Assembly: GCA_031277225.1 (NCBI GenBank)
Contig: JAITMQ010000060.1
Location: 1 to 47,944 of the forward strand
Direction of reading: 5' to 3'
DNA from: Clostridiales bacterium
GTDB lineage: Bacteria; Bacillota; Clostridia; Lachnospirales; WRAX01
Length of the DNA: 47,944 bases
Of the stretch, positions 376 to 44,600 are shown piece by piece. Position 1 is the first letter of the stretch. Each line of letters begins with the position of its first letter. A program made the position numbers and the translations under genes. The notes beneath the pieces are model-generated. The model made no database searches, was not told where the DNA came from, and saw only the letters and a program-made list of their open reading frames with translations.

Positions 376-452
376 TAGAAGTCAGAGGTCAGAGGTCAGA
401 GGTCAGAAAAAATCTGACATCTGCTCTTTTCTGACTTCTGACCTCTGACCTT
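376..452. repeat. heptanucleotide (GTCAGAG)n array facing its inverse complement (hairpin)
   Basis: agaagtcagaggtcagaggtcagaggtcag ... ctgacttctgacctctgacctt. Confidence 0.9.
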
Positions 453-470
453 CGGTATTCTACATGTTAG

Positions 471-514
471 CCGACTTTCAGTCGGAATCTTTAGCCGGTT
501 TCAACCGGCATTAA
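471..514. repeat. partial copy of composite 'gccggtt...aaccggc' palindromic element
   Basis: gccgactttcagtcggaatctttagccggtttcaaccggcatt, matching half of the elements at 7078, 24451 and 30998. Confidence 0.8.
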
Positions 515-2079
515 CCCTCCGCCACTTTCTTAACAACAAGCAATTTCTGCCCCGCCGCAAGAGCGGCCGTCGGCTCAATGTCATTTATAGCCGCCAATTC
601 TTCCAAATCGGCATTATAGCGTTTTGCCACAGACCACAGACTGTCCGCCTGCTGCGCCACCAAAATCACCATTGACGGCAAATTGTCCAAATCTTCGGTG
701 TTAAGCGGGTTAAATTCAATGTCTTGAATCAATTGCGCGGGTCTTAGCTCTCGAATCAGGGTGTCAAAGCTTAGGGTAAAGCGCAGCTCCACCTCGCGGC
801 CGGACAGCATATTAAAGCTGATTTGGTCGATATTATGCGTAATTGCGGCCTCCATTCCAAGGCGCGCGCCCTTGGTTTCAATAACCTGCCTAAAGGGCAG
901 ATGGGCGCGATAATTGTGCACGGGGGCTTCGTCCGAATTTGCGACATAGAGGATATTCGCCTCTACAATGCCTTCGACAATGACCTTGTCTTCAATAACC
1001 CGCCTGTCCTCAAGATGCACAAGTCCGCCAACCTGCAAAACCTGCAAAATCTCGGGCGCGCCCGAAAGTGTAACAATTTCCTTGGCGCTAAATTGATTCC
1101 TATTGCGGCAAATAAGGCTCAAATAGTCCAGACTTTGGGTTTTAATATCCAAATTTTGGTCAATGCAATAGGCATCTTCCAAAACCGAAAACTCCCTATT
1201 TTCCGAAATTTGCACATCGGCGGCAATAACCACTTCTATGGACAAAATGCGGTCTTCGCCGTCTGCATCCGGCCCAATTTCAATCAAATGGTCGGCAAGC
1301 GAAAGTCTGACATCGGAAAACACGCCTTCCCGCGCGGCCTCTACATCCAAAGAGCCCGAAAACGGCAGTTCAAAATCCGCAAAATCAATAATGGATTCGC
1401 TGTCAAAGCCCTTATACAGCGGGGTTATGAGCAAGTCGCCGCTTATGTCCACCCTGCCCGCCGCCATGGTAATTTCCCTGCTGACAATATTTATATTTGC
1501 CTGCAACAATTCCCGAATTGCGGGCTTGGCCGACGGCAAAACAATCTCGTCCCTAATGGTAAATTGTTCCACTTGCTTGCTAACCATATTATTCATGGTC
1601 AAAAACGCCATTTTCTGCTGGCTTTCGGGCAAATCGCTTATAGACCGCACGGCCTCAAAATTTTGGTTATCAAGCGCTTGCGCCTGAATATCAACGACCA
1701 CCCTATAGTTTAATTTGCGGTCGTTTACAATATGATGTTCGATATTTTCCAAATTTGCGTCCAAATTAAGCCACATATGAGGGGCAACACCCTCCATATT
1801 CAAAAAGTCGTCAATATTATTGCGCGCCGAAATGCTGTGCACCGAAATTTCTCCGCCGACATTTGCCAAATAAAGCGCATCCACAACCAATTGCCCGGAG
1901 AAACTAATTCGCCCCATATTAGCATTTGCTTTATTTATTGCCACACGCGCCGTAACTTTAAGCACCGAGGCAATATCCGGCTTAACATCGGGCACAATAA
2001 TGTCCCCCTCCAAAAGCATCTGGCTTCTCTCTCGCCCTATATGCCGATTCAACAAAATATTCTCCCGAACAAGCTCCAT
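511..2079 (-). CDS. SPOCS (DUF3794) domain and C-terminal LysM protein, SipL-like spore coat morphogenesis protein
   Basis: 522 aa; MELVRENILLNRHIGRERSQMLLEGDIIVPDVKPDI... SPOCS-type repeats and terminal LysM (QQADSLWSVAKRYNADLEELAAINDI...GQKLLVV). Confidence 0.85.
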   Translation of the reverse strand: MELVRENILLNRHIGRERSQMLLEGDIIVPDVKPDIASVLKVTARVAINKANANMGRISFSGQLVVDALYLANVGGEISVHSISARNNIDDFLNMEGVAPHMWLNLDANLENIEHHIVNDRKLNYRVVVDIQAQALDNQNFEAVRSISDLPESQQKMAFLTMNNMVSKQVEQFTIRDEIVLPSAKPAIRELLQANINIVSREITMAAGRVDISGDLLITPLYKGFDSESIIDFADFELPFSGSLDVEAAREGVFSDVRLSLADHLIEIGPDADGEDRILSIEVVIAADVQISENREFSVLEDAYCIDQNLDIKTQSLDYLSLICRNRNQFSAKEIVTLSGAPEILQVLQVGGLVHLEDRRVIEDKVIVEGIVEANILYVANSDEAPVHNYRAHLPFRQVIETKGARLGMEAAITHNIDQISFNMLSGREVELRFTLSFDTLIRELRPAQLIQDIEFNPLNTEDLDNLPSMVILVAQQADSLWSVAKRYNADLEELAAINDIEPTAALAAGQKLLVVKKVAEG

Positions 2080-2150
2080 AATAACCCTCCTAAAAATTCA
2101 AAAATTGCATTATGTTAATTATATAAGCTTGTAATTCTTTTTAGAACAAA

Positions 2151-2212
2151 AAGAGGTCAGAGGTCAGAGGTCAGATTTTTCTGACCTCTGACCTCTGACT
2201 TCTGACTTCTTA
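2151..2212. repeat. heptanucleotide hairpin (GAGGTCA)n / (TGACCTC)n, ~22-bp stem, 6-nt loop
   Basis: aggtcagaggtcagaggtcag attttt ctgacctctgacctctgacttctgacttct. Confidence 0.9.
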
Positions 2213-2218
2213 GAAGGA

Positions 2219-2289
2219 AGGTGCCACCCGGAGTTGAACCGGGGGTCATGGAGTTGCAGTCCACTGCCTTACCACTTGGCTATGGCACC
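2219..2289 (-). tRNA. tRNA-Cys (GCA)
   Basis: reverse complement GGTGCCATAGCCAAGTGGTAAGGCAGTGGACTGCAACTCCATGACCCCCGGTTCAACTCCGGGTGGCACCT; cloverleaf arms, T-loop GGTTCAACTCC, anticodon GCA. Confidence 0.93.
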
Positions 2290-2297
2290 GACTTACA

Positions 2298-2367
2298 AAT
2301 GAATAAGGAATAATGAATAATGAATAATTACTAAAAACTATCCATTATTCATTATTCCTTATTCATT
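2298..2367. repeat. 25-bp perfect inverted repeat built of GAATAAT heptamers, between the two tRNA genes
   Basis: AATGAATAAGGAATAATGAATAATG (2298-2322) and CATTATTCATTATTCCTTATTCATT (2343-2367). Confidence 0.95.
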
Positions 2368-2578: not shown

Positions 2579-2629
2579 AGTAAATTAGAGGTTAGAAGTT
2601 AGAAATTAGAAATGGAAAGAGGGAGAGGC

Positions 2630-4679: not shown

Positions 4680-6728
4680 ATGATTATGCTATTAACAGAC
4701 AGTATAGAAAAATTAAAAAATGTAGGCAGCGCGCGCCGCACAGCACTTGCTCAAATCGGCGTTCACACCGTCGCAGACCTGCTTGAATACTCCCCCCGCG
4801 AATATGTAGACCGCAGCATAATCTCGCAAATTGCACAGCTTCACGAGGGGCAGCTGGCCACGATTTTGGCGTGGCGGCAGGGGGCGGCGCAGTCCACGCA
4901 GGGGCGCGGAAAAACCATAACCCGCGTAAATTTTAGCGACGGCACGGGGCAAATTGGCATTACATGGTTTAATCAGCCCTATATGGCCGCAAATTTTAAG
5001 GACGGCCTGAAATACTTTATTTCGGGGCGGGTTGTGCGCGGCCTTTCGGGGCGGCTTACTCTCGAAACCCCCGAATATGAGGCGCAAAATGCGCAAGGCC
5101 TGTCGGCGGGCCGAATTGTGCCGATTTATAGGCTTACAAGCGGCCTAACCCAGAAAATGCTGCGAGGGCTGATTAAGCAGGCCTTGGACGGCACAAAAGG
5201 CCAAATTGCGGACTTTTTGCCGGAAAATCTTCGGATTGCAAATGGATTGTGCAGAAGGGATTTCGCCATTGAGAATATCCATTTTCCGGCCTGTGGCGAG
5301 AGTTTTTACACCGCGCGTAAGCGGCTGGTTTTTGACGAATTATTCCTGCTACAGGCTTCGCTAATGGCCGCCAAGGGGCAACTTCGGCATGAAACCAAAC
5401 CCTTCGCAAACATGGACATTGCGCCGATTTTAGCCGCCCTGCCCTATGAACTGACCGCCGACCAAGCCAAGGTTGTAGCCGAAATCATGAACGACATTTC
5501 GAGTGGCTTTGCGCTAAATCGCCTGCTTCAAGGGGATGTGGGCAGCGGCAAAACCGCCGTGGCCATGATAATTTGCTATCTTACGGCCAAAAACGGCGCG
5601 CAAGCCGCGCTTATGGCCCCCACGGAAACGCTGGCGGTTCAGCATTTTGCGTCATTTAAGGAATTGTTTGACGGGCTTGGAATTCGCGTGGGGCTATTGG
5701 TTGGTTCGCTTAAAGCCGGGGAAAAGCCGGAGATTAAGGCAAAACTTGCTGACGGCGAAGTCGACATTGTAATCGGCACGCACGCCCTAATCCAAGAAAA
5801 TGTCGAATTTAAGCGGCTTGGACTGGTTATCACCGACGAACAACATCGCTTTGGCGTGCGCCAGCGCGCAAAACTCGGCGCAAAGGGCGGCGCGCCGCAT
5901 ATCCTTGTTATGACGGCCACGCCGATTCCGCGCTCGCTGGCCATGGTGCTCTATGGCGATATGGATATTTCTGCCATTCGCAACCTTCCGCCCGGCCGCC
6001 AAAAAATCGACACCTATACCGTTGGCAAATCCTACCATCCGCGGATTTTCGCCTTTATTCGTAAGGAGATTGAGGCGGGGAGGCAGGCCTATATCATCTG
6101 TCCTTTAATTGAATCCGGGGAGTCAGAGGTCAGAGGTCAGAGGTCAGAAATCAGTGAAGTCGTGAAATTCGCGGAACAGCTTAAGAGCGGGGTTTTTGCG
6201 GACTTAAGCCTTGGGGTTCTGCATGGGCGACTAAGGTCGGAGGAGAAGAATGAGATTATGGGGGCGTTTGCGCGGAATGAAGTGCAGGTTTTGGTTGCTA
6301 CGACGGTTATCGAAGTGGGTATAAATGTGCCGAATGCCACGGTGATTTTAATTGAAAATGCCGAGCGTTTCGGGCTTTCACAGCTTCATCAGCTGCGCGG
6401 GCGCGTTGGGCGCGGGGCGCATAAATCCTATTGCATTTTGATTACGGATTTCAAAAACGAGATTACGGCCAAGCGAATGAAGGCCATGACAAGCACAAAT
6501 GACGGCTTTGAGCTGTCCGAGTTGGATTTGGAATTGCGCGGGCCGGGCGAATTTTTCGGCACGGCGCAACATGGGCTGCCTAAGCTTATGCTGGCGAATC
6601 TTTATCGGGATTTGGATATTTTAGAACTGGCGCGAAATGCCGCGCTTGGCATGGGGCGGGTGCAATTTCCGCCTCTAAAAGCCAGAATTGACCAGTTGTT
6701 GGGGAAAATGCAGCAAATCGCGCTATGA
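4680..6728 (+). CDS. recG: ATP-dependent DNA helicase RecG
   Basis: 682 aa; LLQGDVGSGKTAVA, DEQHRFGVRQR, MTATPIPRSLA, VLHGRLRSEEKNEIM, ATTVIEVGINVPNAT, QLHQLRGRVGRG. Confidence 0.95.
   Translation: MIMLLTDSIEKLKNVGSARRTALAQIGVHTVADLLEYSPREYVDRSIISQIAQLHEGQLATILAWRQGAAQSTQGRGKTITRVNFSDGTGQIGITWFNQPYMAANFKDGLKYFISGRVVRGLSGRLTLETPEYEAQNAQGLSAGRIVPIYRLTSGLTQKMLRGLIKQALDGTKGQIADFLPENLRIANGLCRRDFAIENIHFPACGESFYTARKRLVFDELFLLQASLMAAKGQLRHETKPFANMDIAPILAALPYELTADQAKVVAEIMNDISSGFALNRLLQGDVGSGKTAVAMIICYLTAKNGAQAALMAPTETLAVQHFASFKELFDGLGIRVGLLVGSLKAGEKPEIKAKLADGEVDIVIGTHALIQENVEFKRLGLVITDEQHRFGVRQRAKLGAKGGAPHILVMTATPIPRSLAMVLYGDMDISAIRNLPPGRQKIDTYTVGKSYHPRIFAFIRKEIEAGRQAYIICPLIESGESEVRGQRSEISEVVKFAEQLKSGVFADLSLGVLHGRLRSEEKNEIMGAFARNEVQVLVATTVIEVGINVPNATVILIENAERFGLSQLHQLRGRVGRGAHKSYCILITDFKNEITAKRMKAMTSTNDGFELSELDLELRGPGEFFGTAQHGLPKLMLANLYRDLDILELARNAALGMGRVQFPPLKARIDQLLGKMQQIAL
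6122..6149 (+). repeat. 4 x GTCAGAG heptamer array embedded in frame in recG
   Basis: gtcagag gtcagag gtcagag gtcagaa; encodes SEVRGQRSE. Confidence 0.92.
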
Positions 6729-6775: not shown

Positions 6776-6986
6776 TCCCTAAAGGGTCGGACAGACTTCA
6801 GGACAGTGCGCGGTGCTACGCACTAGCTCCATAGCCAGAGCGAAGCTCTGCGCCACTTTGTCTTCACTCCGGCCGTTCCTAAAGGGTCGGAATGTGGAAT
6901 GCGGAATAATACCAAGCCGCAACCTATCCAGCAGCAATAAGCTTGTCTTTTTGCCGCAATACTTCGGCAAAAAAAGCTTATGTGCC

Positions 6987-7070
6987 CTCGGCATGGGGCG
7001 GGTGCAATTTCCGCCATTGAGGGAAAGAATTAATCAATTGCTTGGAAAAATGCAGCAAATTGCGCTATGA
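6987..7070 (+). pseudogene. duplicated, diverged 3' tail of recG
   Basis: cggcatggggcgggtgcaatttccgcc...atgcagcaaattgcgctatga encodes LGMGRVQFPPLRERINQLLGKMQQIAL*, against recG LGMGRVQFPPLKARIDQLLGKMQQIAL*. Confidence 0.85.
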
Positions 7071-7077
7071 AGCGGAA

Positions 7078-7155
7078 ATGCCGGTTAAAAACCGGCTAAA
7101 GTAACGGTTGGAAACCGACTTCCAGTCGGAATCTTCAGCCGGTTTCAACCGGCAT
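7078..7155. repeat. composite palindromic element (~78 bp) just upstream of rsmD
   Basis: atgccggttaaaaaccggctaaagtaacggttggaaaccgacttccagtcggaatcttcagccggtttcaaccggcat. Confidence 0.9.
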
Positions 7156-7181
7156 TACCGCTTAGACATCGGGAGAACATT

Positions 7182-10528: not shown

Positions 10529-10561
10529 ACCCCCACAAGCGGATGCCTGCGGGGGTTTTTC
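10529..10561. terminator. rho-independent terminator of argS
   Basis: cccccacaagcggatgcctgcgggggttttt. Confidence 0.75.
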
Positions 10562-10775
10562 GGCTGGCCGTCATTGCGGGCTTGACCCGCAATCCCCCGT
10601 TTGTTCATCCACGGCTGAAGCTGTGGATGAAATGATGAATGTTAAATGATGAATGATGAATGAAAACCCCGAAACCTCACGCTTTTGAACTTGATTCATC
10701 ATTCATCATTCATAATTCATAATTCCGACCCGAAGGGTCGGACAAGTGGGGGATTCCCGCTTTCGCGGGAATGAC

Positions 10776-10872
10776 GTTTTTCGTGCTTTTCGTGCTTTTC
10801 GTGCTTTTCGTGCTTTTCGTGCTTTTCGTGGTTAAAAGGATTGAGCCACGAAAGGCACGAAAGGCACGAAAA
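10776..10872. repeat. nonamer (CGTGCTTTT)n hairpin
   Basis: ttcgtgcttttcgtgcttttcgtgcttttcgtgcttttcgtgcttttcgtgg ttaaaaggattgag ccacgaaaggcacgaaaggcacgaaaa. Confidence 0.9.
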
Positions 10873-11192
10873 CGCCATTCGTACAAGCCGTCATTGCGGG
10901 AATGACGGGGTTTGTTGCCGCGTCCGTTGGAATACAGGCGGCCTAAAGGCCGCGATGCCGCTTCGCGGCCGGGCGCAGAGCTGCGCTCTGGCTTTGTTAT
11001 GAGAGCCTGCGCGAAGCGCCGCGCCAGAGGGCGACCGAGGGCGGTCGCCCCTACGGTCGCCCTAAAGGCCGCAGGGTCATTCCCGGCTTGGCCGGGAATC
11101 TCCGGAATTGGCAGGGGATTCCCGCTTTCGCGGGAATGGCGGAAACTTCCGGCGGGGGATTTGGCTTGCGACTAACGTCATCCGCGCTTGGT

Positions 11193-11272
11193 CCTTTTCG
11201 TGGCTTTCGTGCGTTTCGTGCTTTTCGTGGTTAAAAAGATTGAACCACGAAAAGCACGAAAGCCCACGAAAA
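11193..11272. repeat. nonamer hairpin copy
   Basis: cttttcgtggctttcgtgcgtttcgtgcttttcgtggttaaaaagattgaaccacgaaaagcacgaaagcccacgaaaa. Confidence 0.88.
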
Positions 11273-11801
11273 CACCACTCGTACAAACCGTCATTGCGGG
11301 AATGATGGGGTTTGTTGCCGCGTCCGTTGGAATACGGGCGGCCTAAAGGCCGCAGGGTCATTCCCGGCTTGATGGAGAATCCCCCGTTTGTTCATCCACG
11401 GCTGAAGTCGTGGATGAAATGATGAATGAAGAATGATGAATGAAGAATGAAGAATGAAGACCCCGAAACCTCACGCTTTTGGACTTAATTCATCATTCAT
11501 AATTTATCATTTATAATTCCGACCCGAAGGGTCGGACAAGCGGGGGATTCCCGCTTTCGCGGGAATGACGGGGGGTATTGGAGCATCCGTTGGAATACGG
11601 GCGGCCCAAAGGCCGCAGGGTCATTCCCGGCTTGTTGCGGAATCCCCCCGTTTGTTCATCCGCAGCTGAAATGATGAATGATGAATGAAAACCCCGAAAC
11701 CTCATGCTTTTGAACTTAATTCATCATTCATAATTCATAATTCATAATTCCGACCCGAAGGGTCGGACAAGTCGGGGGATTCCCGCTTTCGCGGGAATGA
11801 C

Positions 11802-11875
11802 GTTTTTCGTGCCTTTCGTGCTTTTCGTGGTTAAAAAGATTGAACCACGAAAGGCACGAAAAACACGAAAAACGA
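11802..11875. repeat. nonamer hairpin copy
   Basis: gtttttcgtgcctttcgtgcttttcgtggttaaaaagattgaaccacgaaaggcacgaaaaacacgaaaaac. Confidence 0.88.
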
Positions 11876-11879
11876 AAAT

Positions 11880-11911
11880 CCCCCACAAGCGGATGCCTGC
11901 GGGGGTTTTTC
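11880..11911. terminator. second copy of the argS terminator sequence
   Basis: 30 nt ccccacaagcggatgcctgcgggggttttt identical to 10531-10560. Confidence 0.7.
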
Positions 11912-11962
11912 TAGTTTCTAGTTTCTAGTTTCTAATGTCTAATTTCTAATGTCTAGTTAATT
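11912..11962. repeat. (CTAGTTT/CTAATTT)n heptamer array
   Basis: tagtttctagtttctagtttctaatgtctaatttctaatgtctagttaattctag. Confidence 0.85.
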
Positions 11963-12264: not shown

Positions 12265-12297
12265 AAAAGCCCTCCTCTAATTTCTAATCTCTAATTT

Positions 12298-12675
12298 CTA
12301 ATTTCTAGTATAAAAGTATATAAGCCCCGGCTCATCTAAAGACGAAATCGTCATGCTATTCCCGCTTATATTCACCGTCCAATTCTCCCTTGTGGCAAAA
12401 CCCGCATCGATGGCAAAGCCGCGGGTTATGTCAATGACCAGATGGTTGCCGTTGATTGTCCAGTCAAAATGTTCGGGCGCGCCGCCTAAAAAGCCGCTAA
12501 ACCAGTCCCTATTGCCCGTGCCGTTGCTGTTAAAGGTTATGGGCGTGCTTGGCGGGATATTTGGGCAGTCGTTCCAAATCCACGTGCCGACGATTTCATG
12601 GTCGTCATTGCCGCAGGCCGCAAAAATCACCAGGCCCAAAATTAGCAGCAAAATAGGTAAAACAAATTTCCTCAT
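12298..12675 (-). CDS. small lipoprotein, paralog of 11953-12264
   Basis: MRKFVLPILLLILGLVIFAACGNDDHEIVGTWIWND...ITFNSNGTG...; lipobox IFAAC. Confidence 0.75.
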   Translation of the reverse strand: MRKFVLPILLLILGLVIFAACGNDDHEIVGTWIWNDCPNIPPSTPITFNSNGTGNRDWFSGFLGGAPEHFDWTINGNHLVIDITRGFAIDAGFATRENWTVNISGNSMTISSLDEPGLIYFYTRN

Positions 12676-18949: not shown

Positions 18950-19621
18950 ATGACAATTGAAAGCATTAAAAGAATGAGATTATCAACTGAAGAAAAACGG
19001 CATAATAAAATTATCGCGGAGGCGGCGCGGCTTGAGGGCATGTTGTATTTTGAGCGCAGATATGCGCAATATGCCCGGATTTGCGGCGTTGACGAAGCGG
19101 GGGCGGGGCCGCTGGCCGGGCCCGTGGCGGCCGCGGCGGTGATTATGCCGGCGGGGCTTACAATTCCCGGGATTAATGACTCGAAAAAACTTAGCGAAAA
19201 AAGGCGCAAGGACTTGCGGGGGCGCATTTTAGAGGCGGCGATTGCCTATAACATCGCCTTCATTTGCAACAACGAAATTGACGAAATTAACATACTCCAA
19301 GCGCGGCTTAAGGCCATGGCGCAAGCCGTGGCGAACCTTGACCCCCCGGCGGATTTCGCGCTGACCGACGGCAAATCCCCCGATTTGGGGATTCCCTGCG
19401 CGGGCATTGACCAAGGCGACGCAAAATCCCATTCCATAGCCTGCGCGTCAATTCTGGCCAAAGTCGCCAGAGATGAGCTTATGCTGGAATACCACGCCCT
19501 CTACCCGCAATATGGCTTTGCGCGGCATAAAGGCTATGGCACTAAGGAGCATATGGAGGCCATTCGCGCCTATGGCTTAAGTCCGATACATCGGCGGAGT
19601 TTTTGTTCATCCTTTGGATGA
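18950..19621 (+). CDS. rnhB: ribonuclease HII
   Basis: YARICGVDEAGAGPLAGPVAAAAVIM, INDSKKLSEKRR, GDAKSHSIACASILAKVARDELM, YGFARHKGYGTKEHMEAI. Confidence 0.93.
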   Translation: MTIESIKRMRLSTEEKRHNKIIAEAARLEGMLYFERRYAQYARICGVDEAGAGPLAGPVAAAAVIMPAGLTIPGINDSKKLSEKRRKDLRGRILEAAIAYNIAFICNNEIDEINILQARLKAMAQAVANLDPPADFALTDGKSPDLGIPCAGIDQGDAKSHSIACASILAKVARDELMLEYHALYPQYGFARHKGYGTKEHMEAIRAYGLSPIHRRSFCSSFG

Positions 19622-19786
19622 AATGTGGAATGTGGAATGTGGAATGTGCGCCGCCATAACGTCATGCCGGGCTTGACCCGGCATCCCCTGCCTCTGTCAT
19701 CCGTTGGATGAAATGTGGAATGTGGAATGTGGAATGTGCGCCGCCATAACGTCATGCCGGGCTTGACCCGGCATCCCCTGCTATTT
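19607..19786. repeat. two tandem copies of a 90-bp unit
   Basis: tcatcc(t/g)ttggatgaaatgtggaatgtggaatgtggaatgtgcgccgccataacgtcatgccgggcttgacccggcatcccctgc at 19607 and 19697. Confidence 0.93.
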
Positions 19787-19810: not shown

Positions 19811-20160
19811 ATTCCCGCTTTCGCGGGAATGACGGAACATCTACCGGGGCTGTGTGGCGTGAACGCAGAAGCAACCGCCCGAAGCCTCAAGCCTTTAAGC
19901 CGGACAAAGGGCGGGGGATTCCCGCTTTCGCGGGAATAACGGTAAATCTTGCGGGGGGATTCCCGCTTTCGCGGGAATGACGGGTTGACATTCCGCATTC
20001 TAGCCCGCCTCCGCCTTTCGTGTATTTTCGTGTGTTTCGTGGTTAAAAAGATTAAACCACGAAAGGCACGAAAGGCACGAAAGGTTTTGGGCGGAGGAGT
20101 TGGTGGGGGATTCCCGCTTTCGCGGGAATGACATTCCACATTCCACATTCCGACCCAGGT
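19811..20160. repeat. repeat cluster: four dRS3-like palindromes, nonamer hairpin (20012-20083), cattccacattcc heptamers
   Basis: attcccgctttcgcgggaat at 19811, 19918, 19959, 20110; cctttcgtgtattttcgtgtgtttcgtggttaaaaagattaaaccacgaaaggcacgaaaggcacgaaagg. Confidence 0.88.
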
Positions 20161-20180: not shown

Positions 20181-21752
20181 ATGTATAATATCGAAGTGAG
20201 TGCGCCAAAGCCTAATAGCCCGCATGTGGCTGTTGCGCTTCCCGAGGTTATTATTGGGCAGGGTGAGGGCGGCGGAAAGCCGCCGCCGCAGGGCGAGGCA
20301 CAGGTTAATCCTTTGGACGCGCCGGCACTTTCGGCGAAGTTTTCGCAAGAGGTTTTGAGCTTGATTCAGACGCTTAAAGGGGATGGTTTGATGAATATGA
20401 TTGAGCCTGTGGGCATTTCGGGCGGCGGGGCAATGATGGATTTAACGCCCGCGGCGGGCGTAAATCCCGATAATTCGGGCACGAATATGCAAATGCCCGT
20501 GCAGGGCAAAATGCCGCCACAGCTGAAGAATTTGGCCGGCCTTGTTCCCGGACAGGTTTTTTCCGCCGAAATTCTGGATATTCAGCAGGGTTCGGTTACT
20601 TTGCAGATGGCGGAAGGGCCGCCGCTGACGGCGCGTTCGCTGGTTACGCCCGACGCGCGAATCGGCGATTTGGCCAGCTTTTTGGTGCGTGAAACCAAGC
20701 CCGGCCAGATTTTTCTGGAATTTTTTCGCGGCGGCGTTGGTGGCGGGGATGGCAAGGTTTCCGCGAGTATCATCCGCGAGGCCCTGTCCGCCGCCAATAT
20801 GCAGCATACCGCCGCAAATGCGGGCATTGTTGAGGATTTGGTGTTGCGTAATATGCCCATAGACCTGCAAAACCTTCAGCGCGCCGCCTTTTTCCGCTAT
20901 TCCATGCCGGGCGCGCCCTTTGAGCATATTCAATTCCTCCTACAGAATAATTTTGCGGCGACAGACCGCACGGTGCAGGTTTTTCAAGGGCTTATGAGTG
21001 GTGAGCTAACTCTTGCGGGGGAAATTGCTAAAGCTGTAACCATACTCGATAGCCCAAATTTTACAACCAACAGCCCACAGGCTGCTAGTGTTTGGGAAGG
21101 GCTTGTCAGCCAGCTTAAAGCCCACCAAGCTGTAAATGTAACCCCCGAAACGCCGCAAGGTATGCAGAATCAACAGACCCCGCTCCCCTTACCAAATCCT
21201 AACAATTTCCTGGAGGGGCTTAAGACTATTGCACAGGAAATATCTACCTTAGCCCGCGAGGGCGGCAATACCCCGCTTGCGCAGGCCGCCGAAAATATCG
21301 CCGACATTATCGACTTTTCAAGAAATATCACCGAAACCAAAATGTATTTCCAACTGCCCTTTAGCGCGGAAAATAAGCATTTGGCGGAATTGCATATCTT
21401 TAAGAAAAAGGGCGGCGGGCGCAAAAACGACGGCAAGGTGGCCACGGCCTTAATTGCGCTGGATATGGCGTTTTTGGGGCGGGTCGAAATTCTTGTTAAC
21501 AAGAATAACAAGAATGTGAACCTGCAATTTCGCGGCGATAAAGACTCGACTTTGGACGCGGTTAGCCTAAACAGCTTGGATTTGGCGAATCTCTTGAATG
21601 AGGCGGGCTATGTTCTGGCGGGGCTTAAGACTCGGAAGATTGATGAGAAATTCGATTTAACGCAGGGTGAGGAGAGGTCAGAGGTCAGAGGTCAGAGGTC
21701 AGAGGAGTATTTAGGGATTCCTAAGAGGTATTCGTTTGATGTGAGGATATGA
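20181..21752 (+). CDS. YlqG/FliK-like large protein preceding FlhB-like protein
   Basis: Long Gly/Pro/Gln-rich protein between rnhB and an FlhB C-terminal homolog, as in the B. subtilis rnhB-ylqG-ylqH order; start MYNIEVSAPKP at 20181 (the supplied ORF start at 20100 lies in repeat DNA). Confidence 0.7.
   Translation: MYNIEVSAPKPNSPHVAVALPEVIIGQGEGGGKPPPQGEAQVNPLDAPALSAKFSQEVLSLIQTLKGDGLMNMIEPVGISGGGAMMDLTPAAGVNPDNSGTNMQMPVQGKMPPQLKNLAGLVPGQVFSAEILDIQQGSVTLQMAEGPPLTARSLVTPDARIGDLASFLVRETKPGQIFLEFFRGGVGGGDGKVSASIIREALSAANMQHTAANAGIVEDLVLRNMPIDLQNLQRAAFFRYSMPGAPFEHIQFLLQNNFAATDRTVQVFQGLMSGELTLAGEIAKAVTILDSPNFTTNSPQAASVWEGLVSQLKAHQAVNVTPETPQGMQNQQTPLPLPNPNNFLEGLKTIAQEISTLAREGGNTPLAQAAENIADIIDFSRNITETKMYFQLPFSAENKHLAELHIFKKKGGGRKNDGKVATALIALDMAFLGRVEILVNKNNKNVNLQFRGDKDSTLDAVSLNSLDLANLLNEAGYVLAGLKTRKIDEKFDLTQGEERSEVRGQRSEEYLGIPKRYSFDVRI
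21674..21701 (+). repeat. 4 x GAGGTCA heptamer array embedded in the ylqG-like gene
   Basis: gaggtcagaggtcagaggtcagaggtca encoding RSEVRGQRSE. Confidence 0.92.
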
Positions 21753-30824: not shown

Positions 30825-30910
30825 CGAAGGCTTGTCCGACCCTGCGGGGCGGAATTATGAATTACGAATTACGAATTACGAATTACGTTCAAAAGCTTGA
30901 GGTTTTGGGT
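30825..30910. repeat. inverted fragment of the 10.6-11.8 kb island unit
   Basis: gcttgtccgaccctgcggggcggaattatgaattacgaattacgaattacgaattacgttcaaaagcttgaggttttggg: reverse complement resembles 'accccgaaacctcacgcttttgaactt...cataattccgacccgaagggtcggacaag'. Confidence 0.8.
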
Positions 30911-33737: not shown

Positions 33738-33932
33738 ATTCCCTTGATAAGCGGGAATCCCCTCGTGCTTTGCAGGTGCTGCAAATGGCAGGGGATTTCG
33801 CGTCAAGCCCGCAATGACGGCTTGTACGAATGGCGTTTTCGTGGGCTTTCGTGCCTTTCGTGGTTCAATCTTTTTAACCACGAACGGCACGAAACACACG
33901 AAAAACGTCATTCCCGCGAAAGCGGGAATCCC
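33738..33932. repeat. ~195-bp composite repeat, left copy
   Basis: cattcccttgataagcgggaatcccct...gcaggtgctgcaaatggcaggggatttcgcgtcaagcccgcaatgacgg...ttcgtggttcaatctttttaaccacga...cgtcattcccgcgaaagcgggaat. Confidence 0.92.
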
Positions 33933-34610: not shown

Positions 34611-34804
34611 TCATTCCCTTGATAAGCGGGAATCCCCTGCCATTTGCAGGTGCTGCAAATGGCAGGGGATTTCGCGTCAAGCCCGCAATGACGGTCTGTA
34701 CGATGGCATTTTCGTGTTTTTCGTGCCTTTCGTGGTTCAATCTTTTTAACCACGAAAGGCACGAAAAGCACGAAAAACGTCATTCCCGCGAAAGCGGGAA
34801 TGAC
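34611..34804. repeat. ~195-bp composite repeat, right copy (direct orientation to 33738-33932)
   Basis: tcattcccttgataagcgggaatcccctgccatttgcaggtgctgcaaatggcaggggatttcgcgtcaagcccgcaatgacgg... Confidence 0.92.
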
Positions 34805-35580: not shown

Positions 35581-35614
35581 GAAACCCCGCAAGCACAACG
35601 CTTGCAGGGTTTCT
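35581..35614. terminator. rho-independent terminator downstream of giant SLH gene
   Basis: gaaaccccgcaagcacaacgcttgcagggtttct. Confidence 0.75.
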
Positions 35615-35633
35615 AGTATCTAATTTCTAATTT

Positions 35634-38600
35634 CTAGTTCCTAGAATCCAGCTCCCACCGCTCATCGCTCTCATAAACCCAACGCTCATGCGTTATGGCG
35701 GCCTTCATCAATTCATAGAATGCCCAATGACTGCGATTAAGGTCATTAAACAGCTGTCTGCGGTCTAAATATGCGTCTATGCGCTCCGAATTCGGAATTC
35801 TGCCCGTATAGTGGTTAATCAGCGCCACAGTCTGCGCGCGGGTTATATTGCCGTCGGGGTCAAATTCATATTCCGGGCCAAAACCTTCAAGATAGTAGAC
35901 AAACCATCCGCGGTCGAAGGCGCGGGCGATATATACAGCCCCCCAATGCCCGGCATCCACGGCAAAGGGATTTGCAAAATCGAATCTGTCAAGTTCCAGA
36001 ATCCTTGTAGCCATGGCCGCAAATTCGGCATTTGTGATAAAGTCGTTGGGGCGGAAGCTTCCGTCGGGGAAGCCCTGCAATTGCCCCCTGTCGGCAAAAT
36101 AGCTGATTGCGGTGAAATACCAGCTGTCTGCGGCTATGTCGCTAAATCTGCTTGCTCCAAATGCGGGCATTGCAGCCTCTGACGAAACCGCCAAATTAAA
36201 CAGCATTTGAACCATTTCGGCGCGCGTAAGCAGGCCGTCGGGACGAACCGTTCCATCCTCATAACCGCGAATATAACGCCTCCAAACATAATGCTCGGCC
36301 TCGACTTCAGGCTGTGGCAGCGGTTCGGGTCTTGTTGGTGGTGTAGGTGGGGGTGTAAATGGTGGTGGTGGCAACCAACCGCCGCCGCCTCCGCCGCCGC
36401 CGCCGCCGCCGTTTCCGCCGCCCTGCACTCGTGTTACATTAAATTCGACTAAATGGTCTTGCAGGTCATCTTCGTCTTGATACCAAATGATAACCAATGT
36501 CCTGTGTCCGGGGGCATAGGAGTGAGTGTAGTCATTATTGTCGGTCAGCCATCCATCTTCATTAAAGTACACATGATACTGGCCAAATGGCAGGTTTTCA
36601 ATCGTCCGCGTGCGCACAGGGGTCGCCTCGCCATCCACGCGATATTCAATCACTATATTGCGCGTAATTTGACGGAAAGTAGCACGGGCATGGAATTCAT
36701 TTGCCATAGCGTTTGCGCTTAAGCCCGCCGCCCCTATATCAAGCAGCAGACGCTGGGCACGGAAAACATAAGAATCGGGTTCGTACAGGGCAAATCCGAA
36801 GGTATCATCCGCCGTCAAAAGAGGCACTCCCTCCTCACGCTCCAGCTCAAATATATTAAATACAGAACCCCAAGGCATGTCGCCATAAGGCAGCTCTATA
36901 TTGCGCAAAAACTCTCCGTCTTCACTCTCAAGCCTTATGTCTAAAAATACTTCCAAAGGCGGAAGATTGTAAATCACATCAATTATCAATCTTCCGTCGA
37001 CAATTGATAATTTGGGCGTAAAGCCGCCGACTGCATAATGCATCATCAATTCGGTAATAATCGCCTCTACTGCCGGGTGATTATTTAGAATATCGCTCAA
37101 TTGGCCTTCATCGGCATTACTCAAAATCTCTTGAATATCGTAAATGTCGGCCGCCTCAAGGATTCCTCGAATCAAGGTACGGGTTGCGCGGCTTATAATT
37201 TCGCCTATATCGGTATTAGCATCCTGCAATATCGCCAAGATTACAGCAATAACAGCCGGGTCTATGGTTGTAGCGTCAACATCGGCTATAATTTCCGGCT
37301 CATAGACTACAACATCTTCTTCGGCCACTTCATCGTCTGCGCCCTTATCGTCCTCATCTGCGCCCTTCTCTTCCTCGACCTTTTCATCATCTTCGTCTTT
37401 CTCGTCTTCTTCTTTTTCTTCGCCTTCGTCTTCCTCTTTTTCTTCTTCCGGAAGCGGCGGCGTTAAGTATTCAAGATATTGCTGCGGCGGCGGCGTTAAG
37501 TTAAAGCCCATGTCGGTAAGGATGTCATACAGTTCAGCCACAACAAGGTCGTTGTAGGGAAGCAGGTCAATAAGAATTGCGCGCGCTGTTTCGGGCATTG
37601 CGTTTTGCAATATATTCTGACTTGCGGGAATCACTTCGTTGCTCATCAAAACGCCTTGGAAACCTTGAGCCGCTTCATCTAAAAGACCCACAATATTACT
37701 GCCCAAGAACCACTCTTCGTCTTGAGGTTCGCCGTATCTATCGGGCGGAGTGGCCACATGCCTTATAATAATGGCTTCATTATTAATCGGAAGCGGCGCA
37801 TATTCAATTATAATTTCAATTCCTGCCCTGTCTGCAACGCCCGGTATATTTGCGGCATTTGCCACGCCCAATCTAATATATCCGGAGGGGATATTCGCTT
37901 CGGCGGCCCAGCCATCCAAGATGGCCTCATTCCACCTTATTTCCCTGCCTTTAGAGCCGCTTTCAATATGCTCTGCAAGTGTCCTGCCTTCTCCCCTAAC
38001 CACATGACGAACCGTAATATCAATATCTTCAACGGCTTTATTATAAGGGATTTGCAATACATTGAGGCCGGGTTGAACTATAAACGATATGCGGCTATAG
38101 CCGTCCATTCGCAGTTCGCCAATTATTTGCGACCGGTCATCCGCGTCCACAACACGGGCATCCCAACCGTTAAAGCCGGACGCATCGTGAACAAGCCTTC
38201 CGGGGAATCTCTCTAATGACCTGCGGATGGTGTAGTGATAATATTCACCCTGCACGACATTTTCAACCCATAGGCCGCTTATTACGGTGGCGTGGTCGTT
38301 ATATTCCACAAATTCAATCCAAACGACAGACTGATCGTCCGGCATAGGCTCGAAATAGAAGCGCACTATAAGGCTTTGGCTTATATTTGCCACGGAGAAA
38401 ACGGGCAATGCGCTTGAACCCCAGTCGCCTAAATTAAGTATGTCTGCGGGTTCGCCCGCAAATTCGGCGACGCGCCTAGTCAATCTATAACCAACAGGGG
38501 GCGTTTCGGCCCATATATTAAAGGTGCGGCCGACATGTTCGGTAAATGCGTCAACTTGTGTTGTGCTGACGATATTTCCGTTTTCGTCGAGGATTACGGT

Positions 38601-41600
38601 GTATACGCTTATATTCACAACATGCTCGCCGACGCGTAGGGGGGTGTAGTAGAAGGTTACGGTTTCGTTATCATCCATATCATGCCATTGGTAGAAGAAA
38701 TTGCTACCTGCGGCCAGCATGAATCCCGGTATATGGGGCGCGAAGACATGGCCTGATGTGCCTCTTAGTATGGGGATATTGCTTATAAAGCCGCTTGGCG
38801 CGGGGATTTCCACGTCGTTTTCGGCATCCCACAAGGTTATGTTGATATTTACGAATCTTGCCGGGTCTCTTTCAAAATGGAAATTGACCACAGCGGGGGC
38901 GGTTACGGTTACTTGGCTTACGTTTCCGACAAGCATAAAGCCCACGCCGGACAAATCGGGCGCATTTACCGTAACTTGAGTGCCGGAGAGTGCCGTTATA
39001 ACCTGTCTGCCGATAAGGAGCGCGCCATGATACATATTCACGACAACATCATCATCCGTGGTGGGTTGCATATCGAAGACCACCACTTGGTTTGGAGCAT
39101 GAATCAGCACCCTTCTCGGCGTTTCACCGAGTGCGATATAGTCGTTATGCATGGGCGCGTCAATTGCGCGCACTTCGCCCAGACGGACATTAGCGATAGT
39201 GTCCGTAACAACAATAGCATTGCCTGCGGCCGTGCTTCTGCCCTCGACTGTAACTGTCGTGGTTAGCTTCACATAGTCGAAATAAACCCTATGTGTTGCG
39301 GGATTATTCGGGTCAAAATTATGGTTGGGAATGGAGCTTGGCCCTTCGTGCCTAAAATGGCTTGCGGCAAGGCTTGGGGCGGTTATGGTTTGCGGCACGT
39401 CCTCGGTGAAGATTATGCTGCGCTCCATTAGGATTTGGTCAATGCCTTGAACTTCCCTTAGAACCACGGTTACAATACCCTGTCCCGGAAGCGGTTCGGG
39501 GCGCGGCGCGTAGACGAATGTCAACACATCGTTACTGCCTACGGAAGCTATTCGCCCGTATAGATAATCATCATTGGCATTGCCGTACACCCGCACAAAA
39601 TCATATCCGGGAACAACGGGCGCGCGATAGGAGAAGGGATGCCCCGCTTGCGCCGCCACATTGAATTCCAAAATTTGGTTGCCGTCGACATCTTCTGCCC
39701 TAATCCGAACAGTTGCGGGGGCTCTGTCATAAGAGAATGTATGCGTGTATGAAGCATCCGGGTTTGCGCCTATATTCAATGTAAAGGGATTCGCTTGAGG
39801 CGGCGTTGTGGGCGACAGAACGAATCCAAGCAAGGGCATGGCGTGGACTTCAAAAACGCTGTTAAGTGGCCGCCTGACCGTAAAGCTATACAATTCTAAA
39901 TTGCTTAGACGGTCAACGCCTCTTATGGTTACTGCTGCGGTGAATTGGTCGATAACCTCCTCAATCGGGCGATATACGAAGTTTATCTCGATATTTTCCG
40001 TAAGACGCGCGGGCGCATGAACGCCCGTTTCACCCGGAGCAAGCACAAATCCGTGTATATGCGGGGCATAGACCCTTATAAGGCTGCCTACTTGGGCATC
40101 AAAGACCGTAGGAGCTGCCACGGGCGCGCCGCCGCCGTATCTAAGGTGGTTTATCGTAACCGTAACCGTTTGCATTGTATAATCAAAGGTTACGGTCGCA
40201 TTTTGCTGCACATTAGTTAAGCTTCTCGACGCGGGACTGGGATTCATCCAGCCCGTAATTACGGGGGCTGTTATGGTTATGTCCGCGCCATAATCCACGA
40301 CTAGCGTAAAGGACTGTATTATATGACCGGTGTTAGCGACATCGCGCGCGGTTACGGTTACCGCAAGCGAATCGCCCATATAGGTATAGTTGAAGTTGAC
40401 ATCTTGATTCGCTTCCATAACCCATACCGCAAGCGGGCTTTGGCTGTCCAAGATAAATCGCTCAAGTTCGGGAATTTCGCCCGTTGTAGGCGCGTTAATC
40501 ATGGCTATATCGCCGAGGCGGTGGCCGGCGCTTGGAATTGCATTGCCGATTTGCGCGCCGTCTTCGGAATCTATGGCCACTCTATTCACGGATACAAGCA
40601 CTCGCTCAAATTCGAAGGTTACCCTTGTAAGCCCGTCAAGATGTGTAAGGTCTACATTCTGCGTTGGGGCGCTTACTAGGGTATAGAATGGCGCAAGATT
40701 AGGCGCATTGACTACATTGTTGCCGGGAACGCCCGGAATTGCGGCGGTGCGGATAACTCTACCGGAATCTCGGTCTACAGCAACGACTTCAATTGCACCT
40801 TGGTGAGGCACATATACAAATCTAAGATAACGCTCGGCTTCAGCTCCCGGCACGGCCTCAAAGCCGCGCAGAAGGGGCTGCCCCGCCGCCAAATGGAATC
40901 CGGGGATATGGGGCGCGTTAAATGTAAATGGCTCGCCTATTACGGCGGGAATGTAAATGGGATATGGGGCTATGGGCGTGCCGTCGACAAGCTCGGCGTG
41001 AATCATAACGCCCTCGTGCATATGCAGGCTTTCATATCTAAATATGAATGTATCCCCGCTGCCAACATCACGCGTAAGAGGCGTAGGCGTAATTAGCCTA
41101 AAGCCCGGCAGGTTTACGGCATGTGCCGTAAAATACGTATTGCGCGGATGTCTAAAGCTCTGCTCGTATAGCGTTGCGTTATTTGCGTCATTAACGCCGC
41201 GAACAATTACATCCACGAGGTGTTGGTCGATAATATATTCGATTGGGACATAGTAGAAGGTTACGGCTTCGTCTGCATCCATATTGTCGAAAGCGTAGAA
41301 CATATTGCTACTTTCCGCCAGAACATATCCCGGCACATGCGGCGCGAAAACATAGCCCGAAGTGCCAATCAACACGGGAATCTCATATATAAACCCTTGT
41401 GGCGGGCTGATTGCCTCGTCATTTTCGGTATTCCACAAGGTTATGTTGATGCTTACGAATCTATCCGGGTCTGTTTCATAATAGAAATTGACCTCGTACG
41501 GGGCGGTTACGGTTACTTGGCTTTCGCTTCCGACAAGCCTAAAGCCCGCGCCCGCCAAATCGGGCGCGCTTACCGTTACGGTCGTGCCGGCCGGGGCGGT

Positions 41601-44600
41601 TATAATCTGACTGCCGATACGGCGCGCGCCATAGAGCATGTTAACAACAACATCATCGGGCGCGGTTGGCTCAAGATAGAAGGGTATGACTTGGTCTGCG
41701 GTGCTTACCCAAACATTTCTTGATATTTCGCCAATCACGGTAAAGCCGTCAACCGCAGGGGCGGAAACCGGAATCACTTCGCCCAGGCGTGTATCGGGGA
41801 TGGCTCTTTCATAAATCACGTCATTGCCTGCGGCTGTGTTTCTGCCCTCGACCGTAACTGTTGTGGTATTCTTCACATAGTCGAAAAATACCCTATGCGT
41901 TGCGGGATTATCCGGGTCAAAATAGTGGTCGGGAATGGAGCTTGGCCCTTCATGCCTAAAATGGCTTGCGCTTAGGTCGGGGGCGGTTATGGTTTGTGAT
42001 ACGCCCACGGTGAAGATTATGCTGCGTTCCATAAGGATTTGCAGACCTTCCCTAAGAACCACGGTTACAACACCTTGCCCCGCAGGAGGGGTTGGGCGCG
42101 CGCGATAGACGAATGTCAAACTTTCGCCATGCCTAACTTCTTCTATGCGGCCATAGAGATAGTCGGGGTCGGTATTGCCTTGAACCCGCACAAAATCAAA
42201 TCCGGGGACAACGGGCGCGCGATATGCAAAGGCATGACCCTCTCGCGCCGCCACATTAAATTGGGCAAGTATTCTGCCGCTGCCTTCCTCTACAGCTTGA
42301 ATTTGAACCGTGGTGGGTTCGGGGTTGTAGCGGAAGGTGCGGGTTATGTCTTCTTCTCTTATATCTAAATCGAAATAATCATCGCCGTATACGGTAAACC
42401 CAAGCAAAGCCATGGCATATACCCTAAACTCGCTGTTAATAGGCCTGCTGAACGTGTAGCGGTATAGCTCCAAAGTGCTTACGCGGTCAACGCCGATTAT
42501 GGTTATGTCTACGGTGTAGCGGTCTATAATCTCCGAAATTGGGCGGTATACGAAGTCTATAACCTGGTCTTCCCTAATGCGGCCGAATGTCCTAAAGCTT
42601 TGCTCGCCGTCGCCAAGCACAATCACATGTCCGTCAATATGCGGAGCGTCTACCCTTATTGTGCTGCCATATTGGACGGGAATGGTTCTTGCGCTTGCCA
42701 CGGTTGTGTCGTTGTCGCCGTATCTAAGGTGGTTTACGGTTATATTCACCATACGCATTGTATACTCGAAGAATACGGGCGTATTGCCTTGTATGTTTGG
42801 TACTTCTCTCGCAGTTTCGGTGGTTTCCCAGCCCTCTATTGTGGGAGGGGCAACGTATACTGTTGAGTTGAGCGCAACGGGGAAGGTAAAGGTTTGGATT
42901 ACCTGGTTAATATTACCGACAGCGTGAGCTATTACGGTTATCGCCGCATCACCCAAAGGCATATAGTCGAAATTGACAACCTGATTCGGAGTTTGCACCC
43001 ATACCGCAACGGGGCTTTGACTCCAAAGGATGTAGTCTTCAAGCTCGTTTATGTTGGTCTGCGTGGGTGCGCTAATCATGGCTATATCGCCTAGACGGTG
43101 AATAGCTGTTGTGGGCGATGGGTCGCCGATTGGCACATGGTCATCCCTATATCTCGCAATTCTATTGACGGCCACCGTAACCCGCTCAAATTCAAAGGTT
43201 GCCCTTACAATATTATCCGAAGGTTCAATGGTTACGGTCTGCGTTGCGTCGCCTATTAAGTTGTAATAGGGCGCAACAAGGCTTTCGGGCGCATGGACTG
43301 TATTATTACCAACCACGCCCGCAATTGCGGATGTGCGGATAATTCTACCAGTTCCTTCTTCTACTGCAATAACTTCAATAGCACCCGGCTGACGCTCGTA
43401 TATAAAGGTAAGATAACGCGCGTCTGCGTCTTCCGGCACAGAATCAAAGCCTTGAATGAGATATTCACCTTCCGCCAAATGGAATCCGGGGATATGGGGC
43501 GCGTTAAATGTAAAGGGCTGGCCTATTACGGCGGGAATCCAAATGGGGGAGGCTACATTGTTGCCGCTGGCATCCACGGTATAAATCCTTACGCCATTCT
43601 GAATGTGCAGGCTTTGATATTCAAAGATGAATTCGCGGCCGATGCCCACATTATAGGTATATGGCGAGCTGGTAATAAGCTGGAAGCCCGGCAGGAGTAC
43701 GGCATGTGCCGTAAATTCCGTATCCCGCAAATGCCTAAAGCTCTGCTCATAAAGGGTTGCGCGCCCTGCGCTTAAATTAACCCCACGAACCGTAACATCT
43801 ACAAGATTACGGTTTATCACATCTTCAAGCGATTCGAATACAAATGTTATGCTTGTGGTATTAGCTCCGCCTTCCGCCGGGAGACCCACGCGCCGCACGG
43901 CTTCCTGGCCTTGCGCCAGAACCCATCCCACGATATTGGGGGCGGTTATATAGCGATGCTCGCCTTGAAGCAGGTTGAAAGCGATTTCAAAGTTCGGGGG
44001 CGCCGGCAGAACATTGCCGTCGGAATCCTCCAGATGGACGGTTATGGGGACATTAATACGGGTATATTCGAATACTACATTATCCACCGCGCCCGTAAGG
44101 GGGACAGTAATCCGGCGGTAGTCCGGCGTGCTATGCAAATGCCATCCCATACGCTCCGGCGCATTAATGGTTATAGTTTCGCCACGACGCGCGCGAATTG
44201 TGAAGCTGTCGATTAATTCGTTATTGGGATATTCGCGCAATTCCACGACAATATCCACATGACGGTAGGGGTCGGGGTCGACTATAAAGAAGAAGGTAAC
44301 CACATTGTCCGTTTCCCCAATCATAATCGGCATTTCCGTCATTACGGGAATAAATCCTTCCAATGCGGGAAGGTTGCGAATCGCATCTACACTAATTAGG
44401 GCAAATTCGCCGCCGCGATGCGACCCATAATTTTCTACAGTCGCAAGCAACTCGCCTGTTCCGGCAAGCACAGCCCGAACGGTTACATCCCGAAGCACCC
44501 TATCGAAATACACATTCAAAACCGCAGGAGTATCGTCATATGTGAAAGTTTGTTGGCCAACGGACTGCCCGGCTGATAAAGTGTAATACCATCTACCAGG

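Follow-up and report, generated by a model that had tools for sequence, protein, structure and literature searches.

The tandem heptanucleotide arrays of the window, the 47,944-nucleotide stretch analysed here and a whole contig (C30) of a draft genome (2.16 Mb, 177 contigs, about 95% complete), are interpreted with moderate confidence as scattered copies of a few short, dispersed and mostly intergenic repeat families, with inherited periods and local diversification. Three kinds of element would make up these families: a bounded NN-YYAGA array, a composite with GAAT-NNN arms, and a nonamer hairpin of CACGAAA-NN units. Every array named by the first-pass annotation was found in place, as was the 25-bp perfect stem at 2298–2367. 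The features of the window are as follows; arrays are given with their strand, hairpins and composite copies without one.

377–451: GTCAGAG-family hairpin, with an array at 377–407 facing an inverse array at 429–451
2152–2210: GTCAGAG-family hairpin with a 4-nt loop, between a SipL/SPOCS-LysM gene and tRNA-Cys
2298–2374: GAATAAT-family hairpin with the 25-bp perfect stem, between tRNA-Cys and tRNA-Glu
2585–2613, plus strand: YTAGA-family array (GGTTAGAAGTTAGAAATTAGA), directly upstream of an Asp23 gene
6122–6148, plus strand: GTCAGAG array within recG, in a length-variable linker of the protein
10631–10725: composite GAAT element copy, arms AATGATG and ATTCATC+ATTCATA around the conserved loop
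10778–10872: nonamer hairpin, six CACGAAANN units in one arm and three in the other, with a conserved GGTTAAA..TTNAACC loop
11196–11277: nonamer (CACGAAANN) hairpin
11418–11518: composite GAAT element copy, left arm GAATGAA/GAATGAT, right arm ATTCATC/ATTTATA
11670–11750: composite GAAT element copy, right arm ATTCATA
11805–11873: nonamer (CACGAAANN) hairpin
11908–11955, minus strand: YTAGA-family array (CTAGAAA and ATTAGAC units)
12276–12307, minus strand: YTAGA-family array (AATTAGA units)
19619–19738, plus strand: two GAATGTG arrays within a 90-bp tandem duplication
20016–20084: nonamer (CACGAAANN) hairpin
20131–20151, minus strand: GAATGTG array, reading ACATTCC on the plus strand
21673–21705, plus strand: GTCAGAG array near the 3' end of a 550-aa ORF
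30852–30887, plus strand: GAATTAC array within a composite GAAT element copy
33828–33913: nonamer (CACGAAANN) hairpin
34709–34776: nonamer (CACGAAANN) hairpin
35609–35644, minus strand: YTAGA-family array overlapping the stop codon of a 4093-aa ORF

The loop of the hairpin at 377–451 was found again elsewhere in the genome (stretches L036 and L046). The 4093-aa ORF occupies 35634–47915 on the minus strand, with its stop codon in a CTAGTTT array; its C-terminal end has a weak match to the surface-protein models NF033190 and NF033921, possibly via SLH-like repeats.

Exact runs were counted as those with at least 14 matching positions, a criterion applied alike to period 7 and to the other periods. 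The window holds 12 exact period-7 runs, against none in ten third-order Markov simulations; three runs have period 9 and two period 14, and periods 4–6, 8 and 10–13 have none. A genome sample of 544.6 kb (the window plus 40 further stretches) gave 44 exact runs at period 7 and 18 at period 9, with none at periods 4, 5 and 8. Arrays occur about once per 6 kb of this sample. Roughly half of the contigs behind the 40 stretches had been picked for holding GTCAGAG arrays, which somewhat inflates densities but affects comparisons between periods much less. The excess of 7-mers over other lengths proposed by the first-pass annotation is thus borne out, with 7 strongly preferred over 5, 6 and 8 (44 runs against none at 5 and 8); its statement that the period is 7 each time applies to the arrays it named, but period 9 is enriched as well, in the CACGAAANN hairpins. 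The pairing of arrays with inverse arrays, also pointed out there, is real: 31 of the 88 period-7 arrays detected by a tolerant search have an inverse copy, 11 nt or longer, no more than 60 nt away, compared with 25 of 1,760 random control stretches (1.4%).

Hairpin arrays make up about one-third of the total, the remaining two-thirds or so being solitary. Fold z-scores relative to shuffled sequence were −7.3 for 376–452, −9.6 for 2151–2212 and −10.6 for 2298–2367, and the lengths of all period-7 arrays pooled peak at 30–36 bp. The arrays are predominantly intergenic, with 19 overlaps with ORFs of at least 150 aa among 92 arrays (some counted twice); over a dozen lie within long ORFs, in both orientations. 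No consistent gene context of the arrays was seen. At Rfam gathering scores, the window yielded matches to two tRNAs and nothing else, leaving the arrays without a structured-RNA family.

Related families, defined after inspection of the data, take in about 80 of the 88 arrays: NN-YYAGA (GGTCAGA, AATTAGA, AACTAGA) and GAAT-NNN (GAATAAT, GAATGAT, GAATTAC, GAATGTG). By content, 34 arrays are YCAGA, 33 GAAT, 13 YTAGA, three CAGT (TAACTGA) and five others. Between nearest neighbours, the 19 distinct units differ by 1.0 substitution on average, allowing for rotation and strand, whereas random units of the same composition give 1.47 ± 0.14; none of 300 random sets had a distance as low. Within the GGTCAGA family (111 units), the final A, G and A are conserved at 100, 100 and 99%, compared with 65 and 87% for the first two positions, a conservation likewise noticed post hoc. 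The G of AGA is invariant although the other two Gs are often replaced by A, and plain mutation bias does not explain this. A contiguous core plus spacer was considered as a rule for all heptamer arrays and rejected: a span test for a contiguous block of variable positions over all arrays was null both in this genome and in other phyla, a clear core being confined here to the YYAGA family and the AGA-type contrast being weaker in other phyla. TAACTGA forms a minor family of three 4-unit arrays, and the pattern CAGT(NNNCAGT)n was seen as n = 4 only, three times. The tetranucleotide CAGT/ACTG is 4.5-fold below expectation in the 544.6-kb sample (935 versus 4,247), yet the TAACTGA arrays contain it; GACT/AGTC is 2.2-fold below expectation.

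Arrays of the NN-YYAGA family end in register, as AGA(NNYYAGA)n with mostly n = 2–4, reach up to about 31 bp and lie between unrelated flanks, sometimes within genes. Among 26 exact GGTCAGA arrays, 19 end directly after AGA, five after one extra G and two after GG, a few of these ends reflecting a variant next unit. A fixed end with chance extension would give 75, 19 and 5%, in agreement with these counts, whereas a random register does not fit (P about 6e-15, arrays treated as independent). The pattern AGA(NNYYAGA)n occurs 40 times at n = 1, which is background level, and then 17, 20, 17, 3 and 2 times at n = 2, 3, 4, 5 and 6; control patterns of the same shape gave 0–2 at each n of 2 or more. 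Only six pairs among 45 arrays share a flanking 13-mer, and these are mostly hairpin loops or arrays of the same locus. A register, ends and a size cut-off common to the arrays are predicted by the dispersal of a bounded element and not by slippage at random sites. Assembly collapse may have caused the size limit in this draft assembly, but another genome's assembly contains arrays of up to 180 bp, and the heptanucleotide repeats of Xanthomonas also have mostly four units (PMC4692102).

The composite GAAT element is defined by a conserved loop, AAGTTCAAARGCTTGAGRTTTCGG, with 14 dispersed matches in the genome; most of these lie among the same set of modules, arranged in constant order. The arm slot beside the loop is variously filled by GAATTAT, GAATTAC, GAATGAT or GAATGTG in the contexts printed, some of which repeat, and a single copy may carry different words in its arms, as in contig C152 (left GAATGTG, right GAATGTT). 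This is direct evidence that different GAAT heptamers derive from one ancestral element through local mutation and homogenisation. The loop of the nonamer hairpin has 22 dispersed matches, mostly with two or three CACGAAA units per arm, and six in one arm of the copy at 10778. Dense clusters of composite repeats in fixed order occupy 10540–11900 of the window and 330–1030 of stretch L069 (C152); their palindromes include GTCATTCCCGC-NNNN-GCGGGAATGAC, GACCCGAAGGGTCGG and CATCCACGGCTGAAGCCGTGGATGA.

The first-pass annotation had described the base sequences of the arrays as unrelated and had argued for a generating mechanism rather than the spread of one element. For this genome the first does not hold and the second is not supported: the units lie closer together than random ones and most are variants of two or three families, chiefly YYAGA and GAAT. 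The YYAGA arrays are alike in register, ends and size, and in the GAAT family arrays do derive from a single ancestral sequence, with heptamers exchanged within one slot, an outcome that the first-pass annotation had itself named as refuting its view.

Among relatives, the GTCAGAG array is rare: of 58 searched, a set in which no other genome of the genus appeared, two had it, this genome itself and a member of its family; in a sample of 292 genomes from the class, this one alone carried it. Samples of 63–100 kb from four same-family genomes contained 0–1 period-7 arrays each. More widely, the exact 27-bp (GTCAGAG)n array turns up in public genome contigs of many phyla, in 117 stretches or more, among them Verrucomicrobia, Planctomycetes, Chloroflexi, Acidobacteria, Bacteroidota, Desulfobacterales, Elusimicrobia, Marinobacter, Thalassolituus, Streptomyces, a cyanobacterium and other Firmicutes; it occurred in 5 of 116 members of a phylum sample centred on one Verrucomicrobia genome. 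The reversed word gave zero wherever tested (the class sample of 292, the Verrucomicrobia phylum sample of 116 and the genome itself), and no flanking 13-mer was common to the foreign loci and this genome. Identical arrays in unrelated phyla, together with near absence from the sampled same-family genomes, form a constraint that simple slippage does not predict. At 80 foreign GTCAGAG loci there were 69 further period-7 arrays, highly diverse in word, compared with 4, 14 and 5 arrays of period 6, 8 and 9, and one Verrucomicrobiales genome had 14 against 1, 2 and 2, with arrays of up to 180 bp. A word-independent preference for 7 outside this genome is therefore real; the sequence-independent 7-bp period proposed by the first-pass annotation is upheld across phyla but not within this genome, with its few related families. 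On one Anaerolineae contig, a block of GTCAGAG, GACATTG and TTACGCA arrays occurs twice in the same order (L120, 2392–2508 and 6783–6912). A 38-nt array used as query matched nothing among plasmids and phages, although the low-complexity filter may mask such queries.

Reverse transcriptase and RAYT genes had been put forward as possible companions of the arrays, and neither co-occurs in the way expected of a driver. No reverse transcriptase (PF00078) match was found in this approximately 95% complete assembly, although a retron, diversity-generating retroelement or group II intron as the driver would require one. The single Y1_Tnp gene of the genome (C39) is IS200/IS605-like (NF033573, 97 bits) and is flanked not by heptamers but by CCGGTTN(n)AACCGG palindromes (L067, 1456–1970). 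Y1_Tnp (PF01797) has a match in 41 of 49 array-positive genomes and none in the other eight, which include genomes of 9.2 and 9.4 Mb; a RAYT is accordingly not supported as the driver. The CCGGTTN(n)AACCGG palindromes are dispersed, with 20 pattern matches on both strands of the 544.6-kb sample, and also occur at 7070–7163 of the window, with a related form at 453–520; they are likely an IS200-derived or REPIN-like family. Beside the palindrome at 7070, downstream of recG, a second copy of the last 29 RecG residues lies at 6981–7067 (86% identical at the protein level). Loss of MutS as a cause was likewise rejected, mutS1 being present above cut-off. The mutS1 model is matched in two parts within one 819-aa frame (C117, 2873–5110), and some 40 model positions between these parts are missing.

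Heptanucleotide repeats have been recorded in several bacteria, among them GGGAATC in Xanthomonas, where the majority of repeats have four units, inverted pairs occur and repeats vary between species, and GGGGA(T/C)T in Nostoc (PMC4692102), as well as TAACTGA in Beggiatoaceae, cyanobacteria and Bacteroidetes (PMC4679880). The STRR of cyanobacteria belong to the same kind. The present arrays resemble such heptanucleotide LSSR/STRR repeats in being tandem 7-bp units beyond chance, mostly intergenic, with variable positions in the unit and some inverted pairs. They differ in having several unit families in one genome, one-third hairpins, in-register ends, word swapping in a composite element and nonamer hairpins. 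The Beggiatoaceae heptamer TAACTGA itself recurs here, but in a Clostridia-like genome and with no link to start codons noticed. Like REPIN/RAYT systems and IS200/IS605-derived palindromic repeats, this genome has dispersed short palindromic intergenic repeats and one Y1 transposase gene with flanking palindromes that are dispersed; unlike there, the transposase is not flanked by the heptamer arrays, which also lack the CCGGTT-AACCGG palindrome. Rickettsia palindromic elements are short repeats that insert in frame within genes, and their likeness to the arrays is a lead only.

In the preferred reading, the 7-bp (or 9-bp) period would have been inherited from the ancestor of each family. In each copy, point mutation and replication slippage would make one variant unit locally uniform, such that neighbouring copies display 'different' heptamers, and the inverse arms would either stem from template switching at the fork or have been part of the original element; slippage and template switching would then be the source of diversity, and the bare array would be mobile. 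Several observations count against dispersed families. Alignment of recG homologues showed no more than a length-variable linker at the array site, no target-site duplication or empty site was demonstrated, and no mobilising gene linked to the arrays was found; the core was noticed post hoc, the contiguous-block test was null and other phyla show a weaker core contrast. Moreover, period 7 is also preferred in other phyla, with many other words, and inheritance of the period alone does not account for this. That preference is what a slippage bias of the polymerase would produce: if the enzyme contacts about 7 nt, as suggested by Mrazek et al. (2007, as cited in PMC4679880 and PMC4692102), 7-nt duplications would preferentially form and expand whatever their sequence, and each array would have originated independently at its site. 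Period 7 does dominate with diverse words in several phyla, with arrays of up to 180 bp in the Verrucomicrobiales genome, and most bacterial genomes have heptanucleotides as their commonest class of long repeat according to the same study as cited there. Such a bias probably contributes across bacteria. As the origin of the present arrays it is possible but rather doubtful, given units that are few and related, array ends in register, unit counts that show no decay from n = 2 and then drop sharply after 4, sampled same-family relatives with 0–1 arrays each, and the additional enrichment of period 9.

Fixed ends and a narrow size at unrelated flanks could also reflect a dedicated, unrecognised enzyme that writes or inserts mobile core-spacer arrays (ending at the core, of near-fixed size, up to about 31 bp) across phyla, the recurring words such as GTCAGAG and TAACTGA being its substrate or template specificity. 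The exact (GTCAGAG)n arrays that share no flanking DNA with this genome, the zero counts of the reversed word, and the equal size of TAACTGA arrays (four units) where CAGT is avoided 4.5-fold are all in keeping with this. Even so, it is an unlikely explanation: no candidate gene was found, no reverse transcriptase was detected in the genome, Y1_Tnp is absent from 8 of 49 array-positive genomes, and the 180-bp arrays elsewhere do not fit a fixed package. Least probable, and by our estimate very much so, is that the arrays are selected sites, whether for binding of a regulator or as mRNA 3' hairpins acting as terminators or stabilisers. Their mostly intergenic position, stable hairpins and conserved AGA core would suit such a role, as would the placement of the Beggiatoaceae TAACTGA arrays just upstream of start codons (PMC4679880), but more than a dozen arrays are inside long ORFs in either orientation, about two-thirds are not hairpins, and no gene context common to them was seen.

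The general heptanucleotide phenomenon has been known since 2007 and is not known to have an established mechanism. To this the present analysis adds the bounded in-register ends, the size cut-off, the swapping of words in one element, the hairpin rate, the lineage restriction (1 of 292 sampled genomes of the class) and the identical (GTCAGAG)n in many phyla. With an array about every 6 kb in the sample, this genome is a good test case for heptamer repeats, and its in-register ends, cut-off near four units, AGA core and word swapping, together with the identical arrays in unrelated phyla, are testable constraints that are not predicted by simple slippage.
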